Made by a program: the position numbers and the translations under genes
Assembly (NCBI GenBank): GCA_903905455.1
Contig: CAIVGN010000125.1
Span: forward strand, 1-44,717
DNA: 44,717 nucleotides
From: an uncultured Archangium sp.
GTDB taxonomy: Bacteria; Myxococcota; Myxococcia; Myxococcales; Myxococcaceae
Reading direction: 5' to 3'
Notes under the pieces: generated by a model
Databases searched by the model: none
What the model was told of the DNA's origin: nothing
What the model saw: only the letters and a program-made list of their open reading frames with translations
In this document: positions 27,975-44,552 of the stretch, in pieces
Numbering within the stretch: position 1 is the stretch's first letter
How the letters are laid out: each line of letters starts with the position of its first letter

Positions 27975-28895
27975 TCAGCTCGCCAGCGCGATGCCGCGGG
28001 CGGACAACTGCGCCTTGACCGTCGCCTCGGCGGCGAACCAGTCCTTCACCTGCGAGCCACCGCGGAACTGGCGGCGCTTCGCGAGGTTGAAAGCCTCCTG
28101 GCGAACGAGCTGCTCGAGCTCACCGGTGGAGATGGTGCGGGCGGGGGCGGCGGCCTTCGTGGCGGGCGCAGACGACTTCGTGGCGGGCGCAGACGACTTC
28201 GCGGCAGGCGCCGACGACTTCGCGGCAGGCGCAGACGACTTCGCGGCGGGGGCAGACGACTTCGCGACAGGCGCGGATGCTTTCGCGGCGGGCGCGGACG
28301 ACTTCTCGACGGGCGCGGACGACTTCTCGACGGGCGCGGACGACTTCTCGACGGGCGCGGATGCCTTCGCGGCGGGCGCGGACGGCTTCGCGGCGGGCGC
28401 GGACGGCTTCGCGGCGGGCGCAGACGCCTTCGCGGCGGTCGCGGCGACCTTCTCCACGGGCGCGGACGACTTCACGACGGGCGCGGAGACCTTCTCCGCG
28501 GGCGCCGACGACTTGGCGACGGGCGCAGCGACCTTCTCCACGGACGCGGCAGCCTTCACGACCGGCGCGGTGGCCTTCTCAGCGGGCGACGACGACTTGG
28601 AAGCGGGCGCGGGGGACTTCGCGGTCGCAGCGGAGGCCTGCTCAGCGGGCGCGGACGACTTGGCGACGGCGGCAGACGCCTTGGCGACGGGCGCGGCGGA
28701 CTTCGCGAGCAGCTCGACGAAGGGCAACTCGGGGGCCGAAGGAGGCGGGGCCTTGACCATCGTCATGCGGGCGCGCTTCACGGCGCGCTTGGCGCCGGTG
28801 GTGACCTTCGCCTTCGGGGCGGCGACGCTCTTGGCGGCCTTCGCCTTCGGGTTGGCCTTCGACTCGGTCTTCGACTTGTTGTTGGTGCTGGTCAT
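27975..28895 (-). CDS. Lysine/alanine/proline-rich repeat protein with DUF2934 C-terminus
   Basis: 306 residues from the ATG at 28893-28895, preceded by GGGGGAGCG. A basic N-terminus (MTSTNNKSKTESKANPKAK) leads to a histone H1-like tail made of heptapeptides of the form K-S-S-A-P-A-A (about 24 units). The C-terminus, ELEQLVRQEAFNLAKRRQFR and then SQVKDWFAAEATVKAQL, matches DUF2934, a short helical domain with V-x-x-x-A-[FY]-x-x-[AY]-x-x-R and D-W-x-x-A-E. The acidic side of DUF2934 and the strongly basic repeat suggest a nucleic-acid or envelope-bound protein, but no function is known. The repeat is likely to vary in length between strains. Confidence 0.85.
   Translation of the reverse strand: MTSTNNKSKTESKANPKAKAAKSVAAPKAKVTTGAKRAVKRARMTMVKAPPPSAPELPFVELLAKSAAPVAKASAAVAKSSAPAEQASAATAKSPAPASKSSSPAEKATAPVVKAAASVEKVAAPVAKSSAPAEKVSAPVVKSSAPVEKVAATAAKASAPAAKPSAPAAKPSAPAAKASAPVEKSSAPVEKSSAPVEKSSAPAAKASAPVAKSSAPAAKSSAPAAKSSAPAAKSSAPATKSSAPATKAAAPARTISTGELEQLVRQEAFNLAKRRQFRGGSQVKDWFAAEATVKAQLSARGIALAS
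28158..28690 (-). repeat. 21-bp in-frame tandem repeat coding K-S-S-A-P-x-x
   Basis: The forward strand shows a 21-base period such as GCAGACGACTTCGCGGCGGG, with substitutions every few units. It encodes the AKSSAPA heptads of the repeat protein on the reverse strand. It is not a CRISPR: there are no unique spacers. Confidence 0.85.
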
Positions 28896-28992
28896 GACGC
28901 GCTCCCCCGGAGGCTGCAGTGGCCCGTGATGGGCGTGCGGGGCCGTGCCTTCGCACAGCCGATCGGTGGAGTGCAACGGCCGTGGGGTGCAA

Positions 28993-29784
28993 TCAGGCGC
29001 CGAAGCGGTACCCCGAGAGCGCGATTCCCTCCAGGCGGTCGGCATAGACGCGCTGGCTCGGCTCACCGGCGGCGGCGCCGGCGACGACGAAGAGCGGCGC
29101 GAGGTGCTCGCTCCGGGGGTGCGAGGCGAGGGCCGCGGGCGCCGTTTCCCAGCGGGTGAGCTGGTCGTCCCGCGTGATCGCGTCGGCCGCCATGGTGTGG
29201 GTGAGCCACGCGTCGAAGCGCTCCGAGTCGGGGCCGCCCCCGCTGAAGAAGCCGCGCATGTGGTGGTAGCTCATGCCGCTGCCGATGATCAGCACGCCCT
29301 CGTCGCGCAATGGCGCCAGCGCGCGACCCAGGGCGAGGTGCTCGGCCGCGTCGAGGCCGGTCCGGAGCGAGAGCTGCACGGTGGGCACGTCGGCCGCAGG
29401 GAACGCGAGCTTGAGGGGGATGAACACCCCGTGGTCGAAGCCGCGGTCGCTCTCGGCGCTGGTGATGCCTTCGGCGCCGAGCAGCAGTTGCACCCGGGAG
29501 GCGAGGGCCGGCGAACCGGGGGCAGGCCAGGTGAGCTGGTAGGTGTGCGGCGGGAAGCCCGAGTAGTCGTAGATCAACGGAGGCTGCACGCCGCGAGTGA
29601 CCGTGGGCACGCCGGTTTCCCAGTGCGCAGAGATGACCAGCAGCGCCTTCGGGCGCTCGGGCAACGTCGAGGGGAAGCCGCGCAGGAACGCCGCCATGGC
29701 GTCCCATAGGCCGGGCGGGCCCATGCCCTCCATGAAGAAGCAGGGGCCTCCTCCATGGGGAATGTAGAGCGTGGGCTGGCGCAC
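28993..29784 (-). CDS. ygiD: DODA-type extradiol aromatic ring-opening dioxygenase
   Basis: 263 residues. It belongs to the LigB/DODA superfamily: TLYIPHGGGPCFF with the first zinc/iron ligand H, LLVISAHWETG with the second (SAHWE), the HGVFIPL segment (FDHGVFIP) and HPRSEHLAPLFV with the third. The usual length is about 260. Members open catechol rings (4,5-DOPA dioxygenase) with one non-haem metal. A DoxX-like membrane gene lies 3 bases upstream on the same strand, and an HxlR regulator faces them, the common arrangement for stress-induced quinone/catechol detoxification. The preferred substrate is not shown by the sequence. Confidence 0.93.
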   Translation of the reverse strand: MRQPTLYIPHGGGPCFFMEGMGPPGLWDAMAAFLRGFPSTLPERPKALLVISAHWETGVPTVTRGVQPPLIYDYSGFPPHTYQLTWPAPGSPALASRVQLLLGAEGITSAESDRGFDHGVFIPLKLAFPAADVPTVQLSLRTGLDAAEHLALGRALAPLRDEGVLIIGSGMSYHHMRGFFSGGGPDSERFDAWLTHTMAADAITRDDQLTRWETAPAALASHPRSEHLAPLFVVAGAAAGEPSQRVYADRLEGIALSGYRFGA

Positions 29785-31532: not shown

Positions 31533-32327
31533 TCACTTCGGTGCCTGGTTCTGCACCAACCGCTCGAGCACGCCAGGCAGGAACCGCTTCATGCCCAGCG
31601 CCAGGCGCTCCTTGCCCACGAACCTCCCCACGTACACCTCCGACTTCTTGGCGCTCACCGCGGCGATGATCTGCCGGGCGGTGGCCTCGGCCGAGAAGCC
31701 ATTGGCGATGTCCTCCCCGGTCCGATTGGTGGGCGACCCATCGGCGGTCAGCGCGTTCTTCGAGACCTCGGTGGCGATGTAGCCGGGGCAGATCATCGTG
31801 ACGGAGATCCCCTCCTTCGCCACCTCGGCGCGCAGTGAATCGAAGAACCCATGCAGCGCGTGCTTCGACGCGCAGTACGCGGAGCGGAGGGGGGTCCCCA
31901 CCTTCCCGGCGACGCTGCTGATCACCACGAACTGCCCCTGCTTCGCCGCGAGCATCGAGGGCAGCACCGCGCGGGTCAGGGCCACGGTGCCGAAGTAGTT
32001 CACCTCCATGATGCGCCGGTGCACGGCCATCTCGGTGTCCTTCACCAACGAGCGCTGGCTGATGCCGCCGTTGTGCACCACCAGGTCGATGCGCCCGAAG
32101 TGCGCGAGCACCCGCGGCACCAACCCCTCGAACGCATCGCTCTTCGCGAGGTCCAGGGGCAGCACCAGCACCTCGGCCCCGGCGCACCGCGCAGCCACGC
32201 GCGCCAGCTCTTCCGGCCGGCGCGCAGAGAGCACCAACTTCGCCCCGGCCGCGGCGAACCCCACGGCCAATTCCTCGCCGATGCCTGACGACGCACCGGT
32301 AATCCACACCACCTGTCCTGGGAGCAT
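31533..32327 (-). CDS. Short-chain dehydrogenase/reductase
   Basis: 264 residues. Rossmann motifs: TGASSGIG (10-17), the DLAKSD adenine site, NGGISQR (N-x-G-G), and the catalytic YCASK with a serine in VVISSVAGKVG. PGYIATEVSKNAL is the C-terminal substrate loop. It resembles the DHRS7-like classical SDRs that reduce ketones or alcohols with NAD(P). The substrate is unknown. The next gene (10 bases upstream) is the macro/deoxyribosyltransferase-like fusion, transcribed in the same direction. Confidence 0.92.
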   Translation of the reverse strand: MLPGQVVWITGASSGIGEELAVGFAAAGAKLVLSARRPEELARVAARCAGAEVLVLPLDLAKSDAFEGLVPRVLAHFGRIDLVVHNGGISQRSLVKDTEMAVHRRIMEVNYFGTVALTRAVLPSMLAAKQGQFVVISSVAGKVGTPLRSAYCASKHALHGFFDSLRAEVAKEGISVTMICPGYIATEVSKNALTADGSPTNRTGEDIANGFSAEATARQIIAAVSAKKSEVYVGRFVGKERLALGMKRFLPGVLERLVQNQAPK

Positions 32328-32337
32328 GGGCCGAGGT

Positions 32338-33351
32338 CTACGCGGTTGCGCCCAGCGTCGCCAACTCCGCGGCCAGCAAGGCCTCGAGCTCGCGGATGTT
32401 CCGGTAGATCAGGCACCGGTGCCCCTTCACGTCGAAGCGGAGCTCGTTGACGTCGCGCGCGAGCAGCACGGTGGGCACCTTCGACGCCCAGGCGTAGCCG
32501 ACCTCCAGGTAGACGTTGGGGTTGGCGCCGGTGAGCTCGGCCACCACGACCTTCGCGGTCTCGATGCGCCCGAGGATGCGCTGGATGATCAGCCCCTCGA
32601 ACACCGCGGCGTCGACGCGCTCGCACAACAGCCCCGCGCCGTGCACGGGCGTCTGGATGCCGTAGTGAAAGACGTCCTCGAACTCGGGCGCAAAGGGCAT
32701 GGCCACGAAGGCGTGCGGCTGGTGGCCCACCGCGCGGGTCCCATGCGTGGGCAGTGAAGGAGGCACCGGCGCGGCGCCCACCACCGGCCGCTCCACGCGG
32801 AAGCCCTCGCCCACGCCGATCATCGACACCCCGACGAGGCCCGCGAGCTTGAGCGCGAGGGTCTGCTGCAGCCGCTGGGCGCGCCCTTCGCGCTTCTCGA
32901 TGATCACCACGCGCTCGAGGCCCGGCGGCAGGCGCCCGTGCTGCACGGCGTCGATCAACCCACCGGCGAGGGCGAGCACCGCCTCGCCTTCATCGAGCCC
33001 GCAGTTCGCCCCGTGCACCGTCATCGCCACCGAGCGCACCGGGGTTCCGCGCGCCTGGAGTAACTCCAGCGCCCGCGACGCGAAGCGCCGCACGTCGTGG
33101 TACCCGAGCGCGAAGAGGGGCACGGTGCCCACGAAGAGCACCTCGCGCGCGGCCAGGGCGCCCTGCGACGGAATGAACCGCCCTTCCCCGTCGTCCGCCT
33201 CGAGCGCGCGCTTGCCGACGCCCACGCCCTGCAGCCGCCCGGCGACGAGCCCGTCAGACGAGTGAAACCCCTGCGCGTGCTTGACCACCACCACGTCGGC
33301 GTCCACCTCGAGGAGATCGCCCTGCACCACGGAAATTTCGACGGAGCTCAC
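32338..33351 (-). CDS. Macro-like domain fused to a deoxyribosyltransferase/TIR-like domain
   Basis: 337 residues from a GTG at 33351 (VSSVEISVVQGDLLEVDADV). Residues 1-165 resemble macro and leucyl-aminopeptidase N-terminal folds: the VVVKHAQGFH turn, the VHGANCGLDEGEAVLALAGGLIDA helix pair and VVIIEKREGRAQRLQQTL. Residues 212-337 are a nucleoside 2-deoxyribosyltransferase/TIR-related module: HAFVAMPFAPEF, AKVVVAELTGANPNVYLEVGYA with E283 in the place of the nucleophilic glutamate, and HRCLIYRN. This type processes or senses nucleotides. The fusion suggests a nucleotide-signal (NAD/ADP-ribose-like) stress or immune protein. Both domain assignments are pattern inferences. The ORF lies between an SDR gene and cglB. 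Confidence 0.65.
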   Translation of the reverse strand: MSSVEISVVQGDLLEVDADVVVVKHAQGFHSSDGLVAGRLQGVGVGKRALEADDGEGRFIPSQGALAAREVLFVGTVPLFALGYHDVRRFASRALELLQARGTPVRSVAMTVHGANCGLDEGEAVLALAGGLIDAVQHGRLPPGLERVVIIEKREGRAQRLQQTLALKLAGLVGVSMIGVGEGFRVERPVVGAAPVPPSLPTHGTRAVGHQPHAFVAMPFAPEFEDVFHYGIQTPVHGAGLLCERVDAAVFEGLIIQRILGRIETAKVVVAELTGANPNVYLEVGYAWASKVPTVLLARDVNELRFDVKGHRCLIYRNIRELEALLAAELATLGATA

Positions 33352-33392
33352 GCGCGCACTGTACCTGCAGGGACGCGAGGCATGATGCACGG

Positions 33393-40682: not shown

Positions 40683-40730
40683 ATGTGCCCCCGCGTGACT
40701 CTCGTGATGGGGAAGGGCGTGCATGACTGA
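40683..40730 (+). other. 15-codon open frame overlapping the mcrB-like start
   Basis: ATG 40683 reads MCPRVTLVMGKGVHD and stops at 40730, 8 bases into the ATPase gene in another frame. It could be a leader peptide coupling translation, or the stump of a gene cut by insertion of the module. Too short to judge from sequence alone. Confidence 0.25.
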
Positions 40731-42282
40731 CGTAGAGCGAAGCAATCAACCGTCGAGCACCAACACGGCAGACCAGGGGGGGCAACTGAACCTGGTGCCC
40801 GGACACCTCGCGCCCCTACTCGACGCGTGTCTCAGGGACTTCACCGAAGCCGGTATCTCCATTGATCGCGCGCTGCTCGCCCGATTCGCGGCCTCCTTGT
40901 TGGCCAAGCGCTTCGTGTTGCTGACCGGGCTCTCGGGCTCGGGGAAGACGAAGCTGGCCCAGTCCATCGCGACGTGGCTGACGAGTCCCGCAGGAACCCA
41001 GGGTGACCCGTTCACGCCGGGTGCGGCGATTCCAGCCGCGAACATCAACTATGTCGTTCGCAGCGCGGACTCGGTGTCCGTCGAGTTCACGAACCCAGAC
41101 CTGGTACGAGTCGCACTCCCACGAGAGCTCATCGGCGAGTGGGTGGCGTGTATCGAAGAAAACGGGTTCACGGACTCCACGCCGGCGCGGACGATCCGGG
41201 AAGCGGCGTCGAACGACAGCCGCTACTCCTCGCAGCTCCATTCGTTTGAAACCCACCTTCGCGCCGCCGCCTTCGCCGTCATCCGCGCGAGGACGAGCAC
41301 ACCGACGAGCGCCCACCCCTACGCAGTCGTCTCCGTCGGCGCCGACTGGACCTCGAACGAGGCCATCGTCGGCTACCCGGACGGACTCGACCCCACTCGG
41401 TACGTCAGGACGCAGGCGCTCGACGTCATCCTCAGCGCCGTCGAGAACCCAGGAACTCCGCACTTCCTGATCCTCGACGAGATGAACCTCTCGCACGTCG
41501 AGCGCTACTTCTCAGACGTGCTTTCGGCGATCGAATCGGGCGAGCCGATCATTCTCTACAAGTCGACGAGCGCTGAACTCCGCAGCGGCGTGCCCACCTC
41601 GGTGCGACTGCCGCCGAACCTGTTCATCATCGGCACGGTGAACGTCGATGAAACGACCTACATGTTCTCGCCGAAGGTCCTCGACCGGGCGAACGTGATC
41701 GAGTTCCGCGTCGAAGAAGCCGAATTGAGCGCCTTCCTCGGAAGGCCCCGCGCCATCCAACTCGAACGGCTCGCCGGTCGGGGCGCGCGCTTCGCTACCC
41801 AATGGTTGCGCGCAGCTTCCTCAGAGATCTCCCCGCGCCCCAACGAGGAATTGAGCCAGGAGCTGATGCTCTTCTTCCGGGTGCTGCAGCAGCAAGAAGG
41901 AGAATTCGGGTTTCGCGTGGCCAAGGAGATCATCGCCTTCACCGAGTGGCACCAGCAACTCGGTGCGGAGGATGAATCAATCAAGACTTCGATGGACGCG
42001 CAGATCATCCAGAAGCTGCTCCCCAAGCTGCATGGGTCGCGGCAGAAGCTCGAGCCAACGCTGTGGGCGCTCGCTTCGCTGTGTGACTTCCGCGACGTCG
42101 GAACCAAGATGAACGAACTCGAGGCGCGCGCAAAGAAGGCGGCGTCGTTCGATGATCAACTCGACCCCCTTCGTGACCTGCCCACTCCTTCGCGGCCCAG
42201 GTATCCGCTCTCCTTCGACAAGATCCGCCGCATGATCAAGCGCCTGCACGCCAACGGATTCACCTCGTTCTCCGAGGCATGA
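40723..42282 (+). CDS. McrB-like AAA+ ATPase of a restriction module
   Basis: 519 residues, with GGGGAAGG upstream of the ATG. Walker A GLSGSGKTK (69-77), Walker B FLILDEMN (248-255) continuing SHVERYFSDVLSAIESGE, and a sensor/arginine segment IIGTVNVDETTYMFSPKVLDRAN about residue 305. These are the signature of the McrB/MoxR-related AAA+ branch (VDE-T-x-x-F-S-x-K-V-x-D-R-A). The N-terminal 65 residues carry no DNA-recognition domain I can name, so it may rely on its partner for specificity. The downstream gene overlaps by 4 bases (ATGA). Together they form a two-gene McrBC-type, modification-dependent defence module; McrB-like rings move DNA and activate the partner nuclease. Confidence 0.9.
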   Translation: MTDVERSNQPSSTNTADQGGQLNLVPGHLAPLLDACLRDFTEAGISIDRALLARFAASLLAKRFVLLTGLSGSGKTKLAQSIATWLTSPAGTQGDPFTPGAAIPAANINYVVRSADSVSVEFTNPDLVRVALPRELIGEWVACIEENGFTDSTPARTIREAASNDSRYSSQLHSFETHLRAAAFAVIRARTSTPTSAHPYAVVSVGADWTSNEAIVGYPDGLDPTRYVRTQALDVILSAVENPGTPHFLILDEMNLSHVERYFSDVLSAIESGEPIILYKSTSAELRSGVPTSVRLPPNLFIIGTVNVDETTYMFSPKVLDRANVIEFRVEEAELSAFLGRPRAIQLERLAGRGARFATQWLRAASSEISPRPNEELSQELMLFFRVLQQQEGEFGFRVAKEIIAFTEWHQQLGAEDESIKTSMDAQIIQKLLPKLHGSRQKLEPTLWALASLCDFRDVGTKMNELEARAKKAASFDDQLDPLRDLPTPSRPRYPLSFDKIRRMIKRLHANGFTSFSEA

Positions 42283-44552
42283 ACGCCGCCCCGGCTGAGA
42301 TCAGCGTCCCGTGCTTCGACCTGTCCAACCGCCTGGTCGCGCGAGTTCGGATCGCGGCGGTGGAGGGTCGCCCCGAGTCGGTAAGGGAACTCTGCGCAGC
42401 GGACGCTCGGCAACACCTCGAATCGAGGTGCCAGGTTCGTGAGGGCTACGTCTACGAGTATCGGATCGAAGACGCCCGCTCCGGGTGGCGCGTGCTTCGC
42501 GACAGGATCGTCCAGCCCAACGCGTTCGATGCGACTGCGGGCAGAATCGACGCGACCAACAGCACTGGATTGGTTCTCGTCCAACTCACGAACGACCAGG
42601 GCCAGGTCGCCAAGGGTGAGCTGGAGGTCATCTCCGCCAAGCTCGACTACCGAACGCAATACCGGACCATGATCGATGACGTCGCCAGCGAGGTCGCCAG
42701 CCTCGTCGTCGATCGCCTCTCCGATGATCGCGTGCGGATGAAGCCCACGACGAGCCCAGGCACGTCGTCGTTGGTCGTTCGAGCCGAGTTCTTGGTGTCT
42801 CTCATTCAGTCGACGAGGTTCCGCGCTTCGGTGGAGCGGATTCTCAGTTCGCCCGAGCGCAGACTCATCGAAGAGGAACGTCTCGTGCCGATAACGCGAT
42901 GCGGCCGGGCCTCCTCAAGTCTCGCGCGGCAGCTCGTCGGTTCGGGCCGCAGACAGATGGTCGCCCCGGGCCATGCACTGACCGCGCTCGGACTCAGCAG
43001 TGTACCCACCCATGTGCAAGCGGCCCAGCGCCGCGAGACGGTGGACATCGAGGAGAACCGCTTCGTCCGACACGTACTCGAGCAGTTCGACGCGTTTCTC
43101 GAGAAGGTCGAGCGAGCCTCACCCGAGGCCCTTCGTCTTCGCAGCGCTTGCCGCCACGCACGCGCGCAGCTCGAGTCCTGGCTCGACCACGCCGTCATGC
43201 GCAAAGTCGGCGCGCCGCAGCGACTGCCCATCGGGAGCCCTGTTCTTCAACGAAGGGACGGGTACCGCGAATTGCTGGGAAGCTGGATCCTCTTCAACTC
43301 GACCTCCGTGATCACCTGGCTCGGGAGCGACGACGTCTTCTCGGTCGGCCGACGCAATCTCGGCGCGCTCTACGAATACTGGGTCTTCTTCAAGCTGCTC
43401 AAGGTCTTCAAGTCGCTGGTACTCGTCACCGAGTCCCCCGGTCGTCGCTTGACCGCGGTGTCCTCGCGAGGGGTCGAGCTCACACTCAAGCGAGGCACGG
43501 CGGCCACCTTCGACGGAACGTTCAACGTGGGTCGGCCGCTTCGCGCGCGCTTTCAGTACAACGCGACCTTCGGCAAGTCAGGGGACCCCAGCCAGAGAGG
43601 GAGTTGGACGCGCTCAATGCGTCCCGATTTCACCTTCTCCATCTGGCCGGCAGAGATGTCGCTCGAACAAGCCGAACGTCTCGAGTCGACGATCCATGTG
43701 CACCTCGACGCGAAGTACAAGATCGAGCGCGCGGTGCAGGTCTTCGGTGAGGAAAACGAGATCATCGGGGACGACGCCAAGCCCGACTACACGCGAGACG
43801 ATCTTCTCAAGATGCACGCCTATCGGGACGCCATCCGCCGTTCCTACGGAGCCTACGTCGTGTATCCGGGGCGCGGTTCACAGGAGACGTTTCCGTGTTT
43901 CCACGAACTCCTGCCCGGCCTCGGCGCCTTCCCACTCGTACCCGGTCAGGGCCCGGATGGAACGGCTGCGGTCGCTCGTTTCCTGCGAGAGGTGCTCGAA
44001 CATGCGAGCGAGCGGACCAGCGCGCGCGAACGACTAAGCTTCGAGAGGTATCGCACCCATTCCGAGAGGCGCTTGTCGGTTCGGGACGCGATGCCTGAAC
44101 TTGCGCCTGATCAGCGGCGCAGTGTCCCCCCAAGTGAGCGTGCGGTGCTCGTTGGCTGGTGTCGAGGCGATGATCACGAACGATGGGTCCGCCGCGCCGG
44201 CCTCTACAACTTCCGGGCTGGCGAACGCCGGGGCGCGCTGAGGCTGTCGCCGGAGGTCCTGCGCGCTGAGTTCGTCTTGCTCCATGGGACGAGGGGCGCG
44301 TTGCCGGGCCTCCTCGCGGTTCGACCGGGAGACTTCCGTGTGCTGACGCGTCGGCAGTTGCTCGAGGAGGGGTACCCATTCCAGGGGCCGCTCGAAGACC
44401 TGTACTTCGTACTCGACATCGAGGGAGAGCCGACCTTCGCCGGGATGGAGATCGACATCGTTCGTCTCGACCTGACGCCCGAGAACCGCACCGGCACTCC
44501 AACCCACCGCCGCCTCGATGAGATCCTCGCGGCGCGCGCGGTCAGTGGTTGA
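42279..44552 (+). CDS. DUF2357/DUF524-type PD-(D/E)xK nuclease, McrC-like partner
   Basis: 757 residues. It overlaps the ATPase gene by four bases. The DUF2357-like N-terminal part (about 30-340) has an extended beta/helix layout. LGALYEYWVFFKLLKVF is the helix before the nuclease fold. The PD-(D/E)xK core is RPDFTF with D450 and then VHLDAKYK with D477 and K479 (D-x-K in place of E-x-K), followed by the helical LLKMHAYRDAIRRSYGAYVVYPG typical of DUF524. The last 140 residues (VLVGWCRGDDHERWV, then YNFRAGERRGALRL and AEFVLLHG) form an extra domain that looks like a PUA/EVE-type fold and could read modified DNA bases. Its specificity is not shown. Confidence 0.88.
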   Translation: MNAAPAEISVPCFDLSNRLVARVRIAAVEGRPESVRELCAADARQHLESRCQVREGYVYEYRIEDARSGWRVLRDRIVQPNAFDATAGRIDATNSTGLVLVQLTNDQGQVAKGELEVISAKLDYRTQYRTMIDDVASEVASLVVDRLSDDRVRMKPTTSPGTSSLVVRAEFLVSLIQSTRFRASVERILSSPERRLIEEERLVPITRCGRASSSLARQLVGSGRRQMVAPGHALTALGLSSVPTHVQAAQRRETVDIEENRFVRHVLEQFDAFLEKVERASPEALRLRSACRHARAQLESWLDHAVMRKVGAPQRLPIGSPVLQRRDGYRELLGSWILFNSTSVITWLGSDDVFSVGRRNLGALYEYWVFFKLLKVFKSLVLVTESPGRRLTAVSSRGVELTLKRGTAATFDGTFNVGRPLRARFQYNATFGKSGDPSQRGSWTRSMRPDFTFSIWPAEMSLEQAERLESTIHVHLDAKYKIERAVQVFGEENEIIGDDAKPDYTRDDLLKMHAYRDAIRRSYGAYVVYPGRGSQETFPCFHELLPGLGAFPLVPGQGPDGTAAVARFLREVLEHASERTSARERLSFERYRTHSERRLSVRDAMPELAPDQRRSVPPSERAVLVGWCRGDDHERWVRRAGLYNFRAGERRGALRLSPEVLRAEFVLLHGTRGALPGLLAVRPGDFRVLTRRQLLEEGYPFQGPLEDLYFVLDIEGEPTFAGMEIDIVRLDLTPENRTGTPTHRRLDEILAARAVSG

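Follow-up and report, generated by a model that had tools for sequence, protein, structure and literature searches.

What could a single small protein do with a macro domain at one end and a deoxyribosyltransferase-like domain at the other? The question is raised by a gene in the window, the whole stretch of 44,717 nucleotides from an uncultured Archangium sp. that was analyzed here. A preliminary description, made from the sequence alone, had proposed that such a protein could be a one-gene immune or stress system that both makes and senses a signal. We followed up this proposal with structure prediction, profile searches and a survey of relatives and their neighbors.

The gene and its two folds

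We found that the open reading frame at 32338-33351, noticed in the preliminary description, is a real gene. It lies on the minus strand (33351 to 32338), begins with GTG, ends with TAG and encodes 337 amino acids; an alternative GTG start is possible upstream, at 33390. The plus-strand frame across the same interval is interrupted by stops. GC content at codon positions 1, 2 and 3 is 77, 44 and 94%, respectively. The difference between 94% at third positions and 44% at second positions, in a genome of 70% GC, fits a true gene. Conservation points the same way. A scan of GTDB genomes gave 99 candidate relatives, 80 of which were kept, and nearly all of these match most of the query and have the same domain order. 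The fusion is a conserved family.

A gene for a short-chain dehydrogenase (SDR; 31533-32327, minus strand) lies 10 nt downstream, and the two genes are possibly co-transcribed. The SDR gene is not conserved as a partner. The other neighbors in the window include a gene for a vWA-type protein, and a motif scan of the window's called ORFs found no TIR box. About 7.4 kb away there is a gene pair that looks like McrBC (40723-44552, plus strand). One gene encodes an AAA+ protein with a Walker A motif and a weak PDB match to the McrB GTPase subunit (E = 0.0023); it overlaps by 4 nt the gene for a 757-amino-acid protein with a DAKYK nuclease-like motif. On the minus strand, an ORF at 27975-29066 has long alanine/lysine/proline repeats of the type APAAKSSAPAAKxSAPV, with a composition like that of histone H1.

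An AlphaFold2 model of the protein was built on an alignment of 55 members (alignment A1) and then used in a structure search (VIA). The model had a mean pLDDT of 94.3 and a pTM of 0.92. Prediction for both halves had been suggested as a check, and it gave a macro fold at the N-terminus and a DNPH1 fold at the C-terminus. Residues 1-172 (32836-33351; these and all coordinates below within the gene are on the minus strand) are a macro domain of the M17-aminopeptidase-N type, with pLDDT of 91-98 per block and Z of about 16 over 154-172 residues. Residues 211-333 (32353-32721) have the DNPH1/RCL fold of DNPH1/NDT-type N-glycosidases (DrHyd); the match to human DNPH1 had a Z of 16.9 over 121 residues at 2.0 A. 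The two are joined by a less conserved linker, residues 173-210 (32722-32835), in which pLDDT falls to 76 around residues 201-210. We found no segment resembling a transmembrane helix in the protein (the highest 19-residue Kyte-Doolittle mean was 1.55), and no match in it to a Pfam SIR2 or SLOG model.

The macro half had been described as macro- or aminopeptidase-N-like, and both parts of that description hold. In the structure search it matched macroH2A1.1, the second macro domain of PARP9, OiMacroD and the N-domain of PepA with Z of 16.3-16.5. A profile of residues 1-172 (A2) matched an M17 aminopeptidase (L147, M17 by Pfam) with an E-value of 1e-16, and the Pfam model M17_N matched weakly, in 8 of the 55 members. 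In all, the A2 profile found the module in three other settings: M17 leucyl aminopeptidases (L147), a macro-CHAT protein from Micromonosporaceae (L146), and lipase-macro-CHAT proteins from Myxococcaceae (L103-L107). The module is thus a recurring hub that effector domains surround: it is followed by CHAT or DrHyd, and preceded by a lipase, caspase, CHAT or TIR domain or by none. The lipase-macro-CHAT proteins, found in several Myxococcaceae genomes, have 1050-1130 amino acids, an LCAT-like lipase and the macro domain in the middle; each is possibly a two-effector cell-death protein.

The conserved residues of the macro half differ from those of MacroD/YmdB-type macrodomains. The catalytic Asn of the NAAN motif and the GGG loop are absent, and the consensus has K-x-A-Q and Y-G-x-D. 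K24 (33280-33282), an invariant column in A1 aligned to VNAA- of YmdB, takes the place of the first Asn of NAAN; the last position of that motif is usually Gln. The other conserved element in A1 and A2 is a T-x-HG-x3-GLDE-x-EA loop at the position of the macro phosphate loop (residues 111-124; 32980-33021), in which T111, G114, G118, D120 and E123 are invariant and H113, L119 and E121 are at least 90% conserved. A similar HGxG loop is present in the M17 protein L147 and the macro-CHAT protein L146. These residues look like a distinct, conserved pocket or interface. Because the macro half lacks NAAN and is nearer to M17 N-domains, an ADP-ribose ligand is only putative; of the proposed link to ADP-ribose the macro fold stands, but the motif of the ADP-ribose hydrolases is missing.

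The active site of the enzyme half

The C-terminal half had been called deoxyribosyltransferase/TIR-type. The first term was borne out. The Pfam model Nuc_deoxyrib_tr (NDT) matched 55 of 55 members (best E-value 1.1e-5), in agreement with the DNPH1 fold. The second holds only loosely, since the domain is TIR-like but not a canonical TIR. No Pfam TIR or TIR_2 model matched the window protein at E-values up to 10, and a CAP12-TIR model matched only 3 of the 55 members (best 0.033). Identity as a canonical TIR was dropped after the Pfam and fold searches. The PADLOC profile 'Effector TIR' (PDLC00733) also matched all 55 members, covering 67 residues of the window protein (252-318) at 1e-11. The FVAMPF...NPNVYLEVGYA module, with a Glu in the position of the nucleophile, is present as described.

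Residues were mapped to human DNPH1 (sequence checked against PDB 8os9) from three agreeing MAFFT alignments together with the strong structural match. Sequence searches gave less: an hhalign comparison of the C-domain profile with the single DNPH1 sequence had a low probability (0.3%), and PDB sequence searches alone were weak (best E-values 0.02-0.07). In DNPH1, Glu104 is the nucleophile, Glu55 activates water and Asp80 protonates the leaving base (PMC10603095). E283 (32503-32505), the catalytic glutamate, is invariant in the 55 aligned members and falls at Glu104. It also aligns with the Glu of the CMP hydrolase MilB, the residue changed to Ala in PDB 4ohb. E244 (32620-32622), likewise invariant, falls at Glu55. 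Two other positions are changed in all aligned members. The invariant F215 (32707-32709) is found at DNPH1 Tyr24, and I259 (32575-32577; I, L, M or V in the family) at Asp80, a loss of the general acid that is known from sequence alignment and not from superposition of side chains.

At the position of the Tyr of NDTs and DNPH1, which is linked to 2'-deoxy specificity, NADase TIRs carry Phe or Ala (PMC11204291). Loss of Asp80 would be tolerable, we infer, if the leaving group were nicotinamide. The combination of F215 with an aliphatic residue at 259 thus points to a ribonucleotide substrate with a leaving group that needs no protonation, of which NAD+ is the simplest. By its active site, the enzyme half would cleave an NAD-like ribonucleotide and seems better suited to be an effector than a maker of signals.

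Relatives, fusions and distribution

The macro-DrHyd fusion is an old full-length family, and its non-myxobacterial members are 33-44% identical to the window protein over the full length. Three members have an additional domain fused in frame at the N-terminus: a caspase-like domain in a Methanosarcina MAG (L032; Pfam C14 just over the cut-off), a CHAT domain in a Methanothrix MAG (L036), and a TIR domain in a Saprospiraceae MAG (L047), which matched the PADLOC ThsB profile at 4.4e-58. The CHAT and TIR members have no methionine at the start of the macro domain, so they are not two overlapping genes misread. All three fused members come from MAGs and lie with L038 in a single part of the tree, which has moderate support. 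A TIR-DrHyd fusion that has no macro domain was also seen (L169:1486-2451; Pfam TIR_2 7e-28, NDT 4e-8).

We found TIR genes within 5 kb of 4 of 47 non-myxobacterial loci (L041, L063, L065 and L075). The background, 336 occurrences of TIR_2 in 273 Mb from the 47 non-myxobacterial genomes, predicts 0.48 such loci (P about 0.0016, an optimistic value because TIR was picked after it had topped the list of neighbor families). At L041, an HsdM-like gene (assigned by eye), the macro-DrHyd gene, and genes for SIR2-TIR and nSTAND1-WD40 proteins stand together, a clear defense-type neighborhood. No CD-NTase was among the 25 PADLOC families listed for 143 neighbors. The proposed link to immunity is therefore upheld in part: the fusions and the TIR neighbors (4 loci vs 0.48 expected) agree with it, whereas many copies in Myxococcaceae are in a conserved, ordinary neighborhood.

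We looked for a conserved operon partner and found none, apart from the syntenic neighbors in related myxobacteria and, in Chloroflexi, a SLOG/LOG gene that accompanies three copies. That gene, of about 200 amino acids, closely follows each of the three copies (L071, L072 and L077), and in one of these genomes (L072) the macro-DrHyd fusion occurs twice in tandem (L148). The Accumulibacter copy is adjoined on one side by a protein with RelA/SpoT-like, LSDAT and RyR domains (L075:9086-11854) followed by a TIR protein, and on the other by a TIR-bearing WD40 protein. A DUF4062 protein adjoins the copy at L043.

The distribution of the gene is patchy. In the family of the window it was present in 62 of 96 genomes, nearly always as a single copy. 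In Myxococcus, Corallococcus and Pyxidicoccus it is near-universal and single-copy, in a conserved neighborhood with D-serine dehydratase, prolyl oligopeptidase and similar genes. Elsewhere, not counting the genome that supplied the seed, it was found in 1 of 150 Micromonosporaceae, 0 of 193 cyanobacteria, 0 of 250 Chloroflexota and 0 of 246 Acidobacteriota; in Planctomycetota, 1 of 245 genomes had a relative, and this was macro-only. On supported branches of the tree, members from different phyla are mixed, for example Gallionellales with Chlorobiaceae and Nostocales with Vicinamibacteria, which would fit lateral transfer. Origin from a phage or plasmid was considered and rejected: tblastn gave partial, mostly C-terminal matches of less than 60% identity, none covering 80% of the query. 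IMG/VR had four partial matches and no full-length copy.

The genome of the window has a decayed second copy of the macro half (G000:C16:15919-16551; 1500-2130 of L082), 72% identical. It breaks off at a stretch that resembles another near 361-480 of L082, a pattern of the kind that a mobile element leaves. Two TAG codons interrupt its frame; it is a truncated pseudogene, and we rejected it as a second system.

Possible functions and comparison with known systems

The reading we favor, tentatively and at close to an even chance, is that the protein is a single-chain sensor and effector of NAD- or nucleotide-centered conflict, in immunity or programmed growth arrest. The macro domain would be the switch, binding a ligand of nucleotide type that is produced upon infection or stress. 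The DNPH1-like domain would serve as effector: a glutamate-dependent N-glycosidase with an active site adapted to ribonucleotides that have a charged leaving group, NAD(P)+ being the simplest. Activation would then deplete NAD+ and the cell would stop. The protein would work as ThsA does, with a ligand-sensing domain and an NADase, in one small chain, and in some lineages a signal-making TIR or an extra executioner (caspase or CHAT) would be fused in front. Because the macro module is found beside interchangeable executioner domains, the simplest notion is that the macro half is the switch and the DrHyd half the effector. Several observations count against this: the stable, ordinary-looking neighborhood in Myxococcus, Corallococcus and Pyxidicoccus, the good conservation of the sequence across phyla for an immune protein, the confinement of the fusions to MAGs in one part of the tree, and the lack of NAAN in the macro half, which leaves nucleotide binding putative. 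It is possible, and on the doubtful side, that the family is more specifically a single-gene, Thoeris-like NADase, in which an M17-N-type macro switch gates a DNPH1-derived NADase that stands alone in myxobacteria and is joined elsewhere to a ThsB-type TIR or to caspase or CHAT.

The main rival is that the protein is a housekeeping or stress N-glycohydrolase of nucleotide or NAD metabolites, for sanitation or salvage, with the macro half only assembling the oligomer or binding substrate, as in M17 N-domains and DNPH1 dimers. Most Myxococcus and Corallococcus genomes keep one copy of the gene in a syntenic position, which fits such an enzyme, as do the high conservation, the absence of full-length copies from the phages, plasmids and IMG/VR entries searched, and the roles of DNPH1 and MilB in sanitation or biosynthesis. 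In contrast, the rare and patchy occurrence beyond the family (0-1 in 150-250 genomes, seed not counted), the fusions to caspase, CHAT and ThsB-type TIR, and the replacement in every member of the Tyr24 and Asp80 of the sanitation enzyme make a metabolic role the less likely reading.

We consider it improbable that the enzyme half makes an ADP-ribose-type signal that the macro half binds in order to recruit separate or fused effectors (TIR, caspase or CHAT). DrHyd/ARC enzymes can make cyclic ADP-ribose (PMC9503650), Thoeris macro domains bind ADPR and IAD (PMC11204291), and if the fused caspase and CHAT domains are executioners, as they appear to be, the DrHyd half would be left to make the signal. 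However, most members stand alone and have no conserved effector partner, the ThsB-type TIR of L047 is already a signal maker, and the C-terminal slot of macro-CHAT is held by an effector and not a synthase. Of the one-gene signal-and-sense system first proposed, then, the one-chain fusion and, from relatives, a link to immunity stand, but the active site fits an effector better than a signal maker. Very improbable is a role in scavenging or antagonism (self-protection or anti-defense, for example), in which the macro half would capture nucleotide signals or modified nucleotides and the protein would destroy them: both folds handle nucleotides, and in virus-host conflicts macro domains cleave ADP-ribose derivatives, both soluble and conjugated (PMC9503650), but the full-length protein was not found in phages and the fusions to executioners would be left unexplained.

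If the protein is a sensor and effector in one chain, then two swaps in the active site turned a sanitation fold, that of DNPH1, into an NAD-cutting executioner, and the M17-N macro module, best known from leucyl aminopeptidases, is a switch common to several cell-death proteins. The NAD-centered immune repertoire would gain a one-gene system, and a concrete question would be the ligand of the M17-N-type macro pocket.

Each domain class is known from NAD-centered conflict systems (PMC9503650, PMC7159879, PMC8195603). A full-text literature search found neither the fusion nor the Tyr-to-Phe and Asp-to-aliphatic signature; a 2015 survey of nucleotide-centered conflict, outside the scope of that search, may list the architecture. 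The family shares with DNPH1/RCL and MilB the NDT/DrHyd fold and the nucleophilic Glu, and with DNPH1 the second Glu; it differs from DNPH1/RCL at Tyr24 and Asp80 and in the fusion to a macro domain. The macro-type module is the same in M17 leucyl aminopeptidase N-domains and M17_N CHAT proteins (profile A2 matches both), but the window protein has no aminopeptidase domain and has K24 where the M17 example L147 has Asn. The CBASS 'Effector TIR' proteins (PDLC00733) pair an N-terminal sensor with a C-terminal effector, as is proposed for the window protein, but here the profile match is limited to part of the enzyme half, and no CD-NTase was recognized among the 25 listed neighbor families. Swarozyc and DUF4062 TIR-like NADases (PMC13174449) belong to the class of TIR/NDT-related, Glu-dependent NADases, in which the window protein would fall too; they are another family with another architecture.

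The closest comparisons are with Thoeris. In TM-macro Thoeris (ThsB TIR plus ThsA macro), the macro domain is a nucleotide sensor (PMC11204291) with an NAD-handling partner, and L047 carries a ThsB-type TIR in the same chain. In contrast to TM-macro Thoeris, which has two or more genes, the system proposed here has one; its protein has no transmembrane segment, its macro domain is of the M17-N type, and it has an NDT-type C-terminal enzyme that is absent from ThsA. The predicted logic is that of the SIR2-SLOG ThsA, a ligand-sensing domain and an NAD-cleaving domain in one protein, with a macro domain in place of SLOG and a DNPH1-like domain in place of SIR2.
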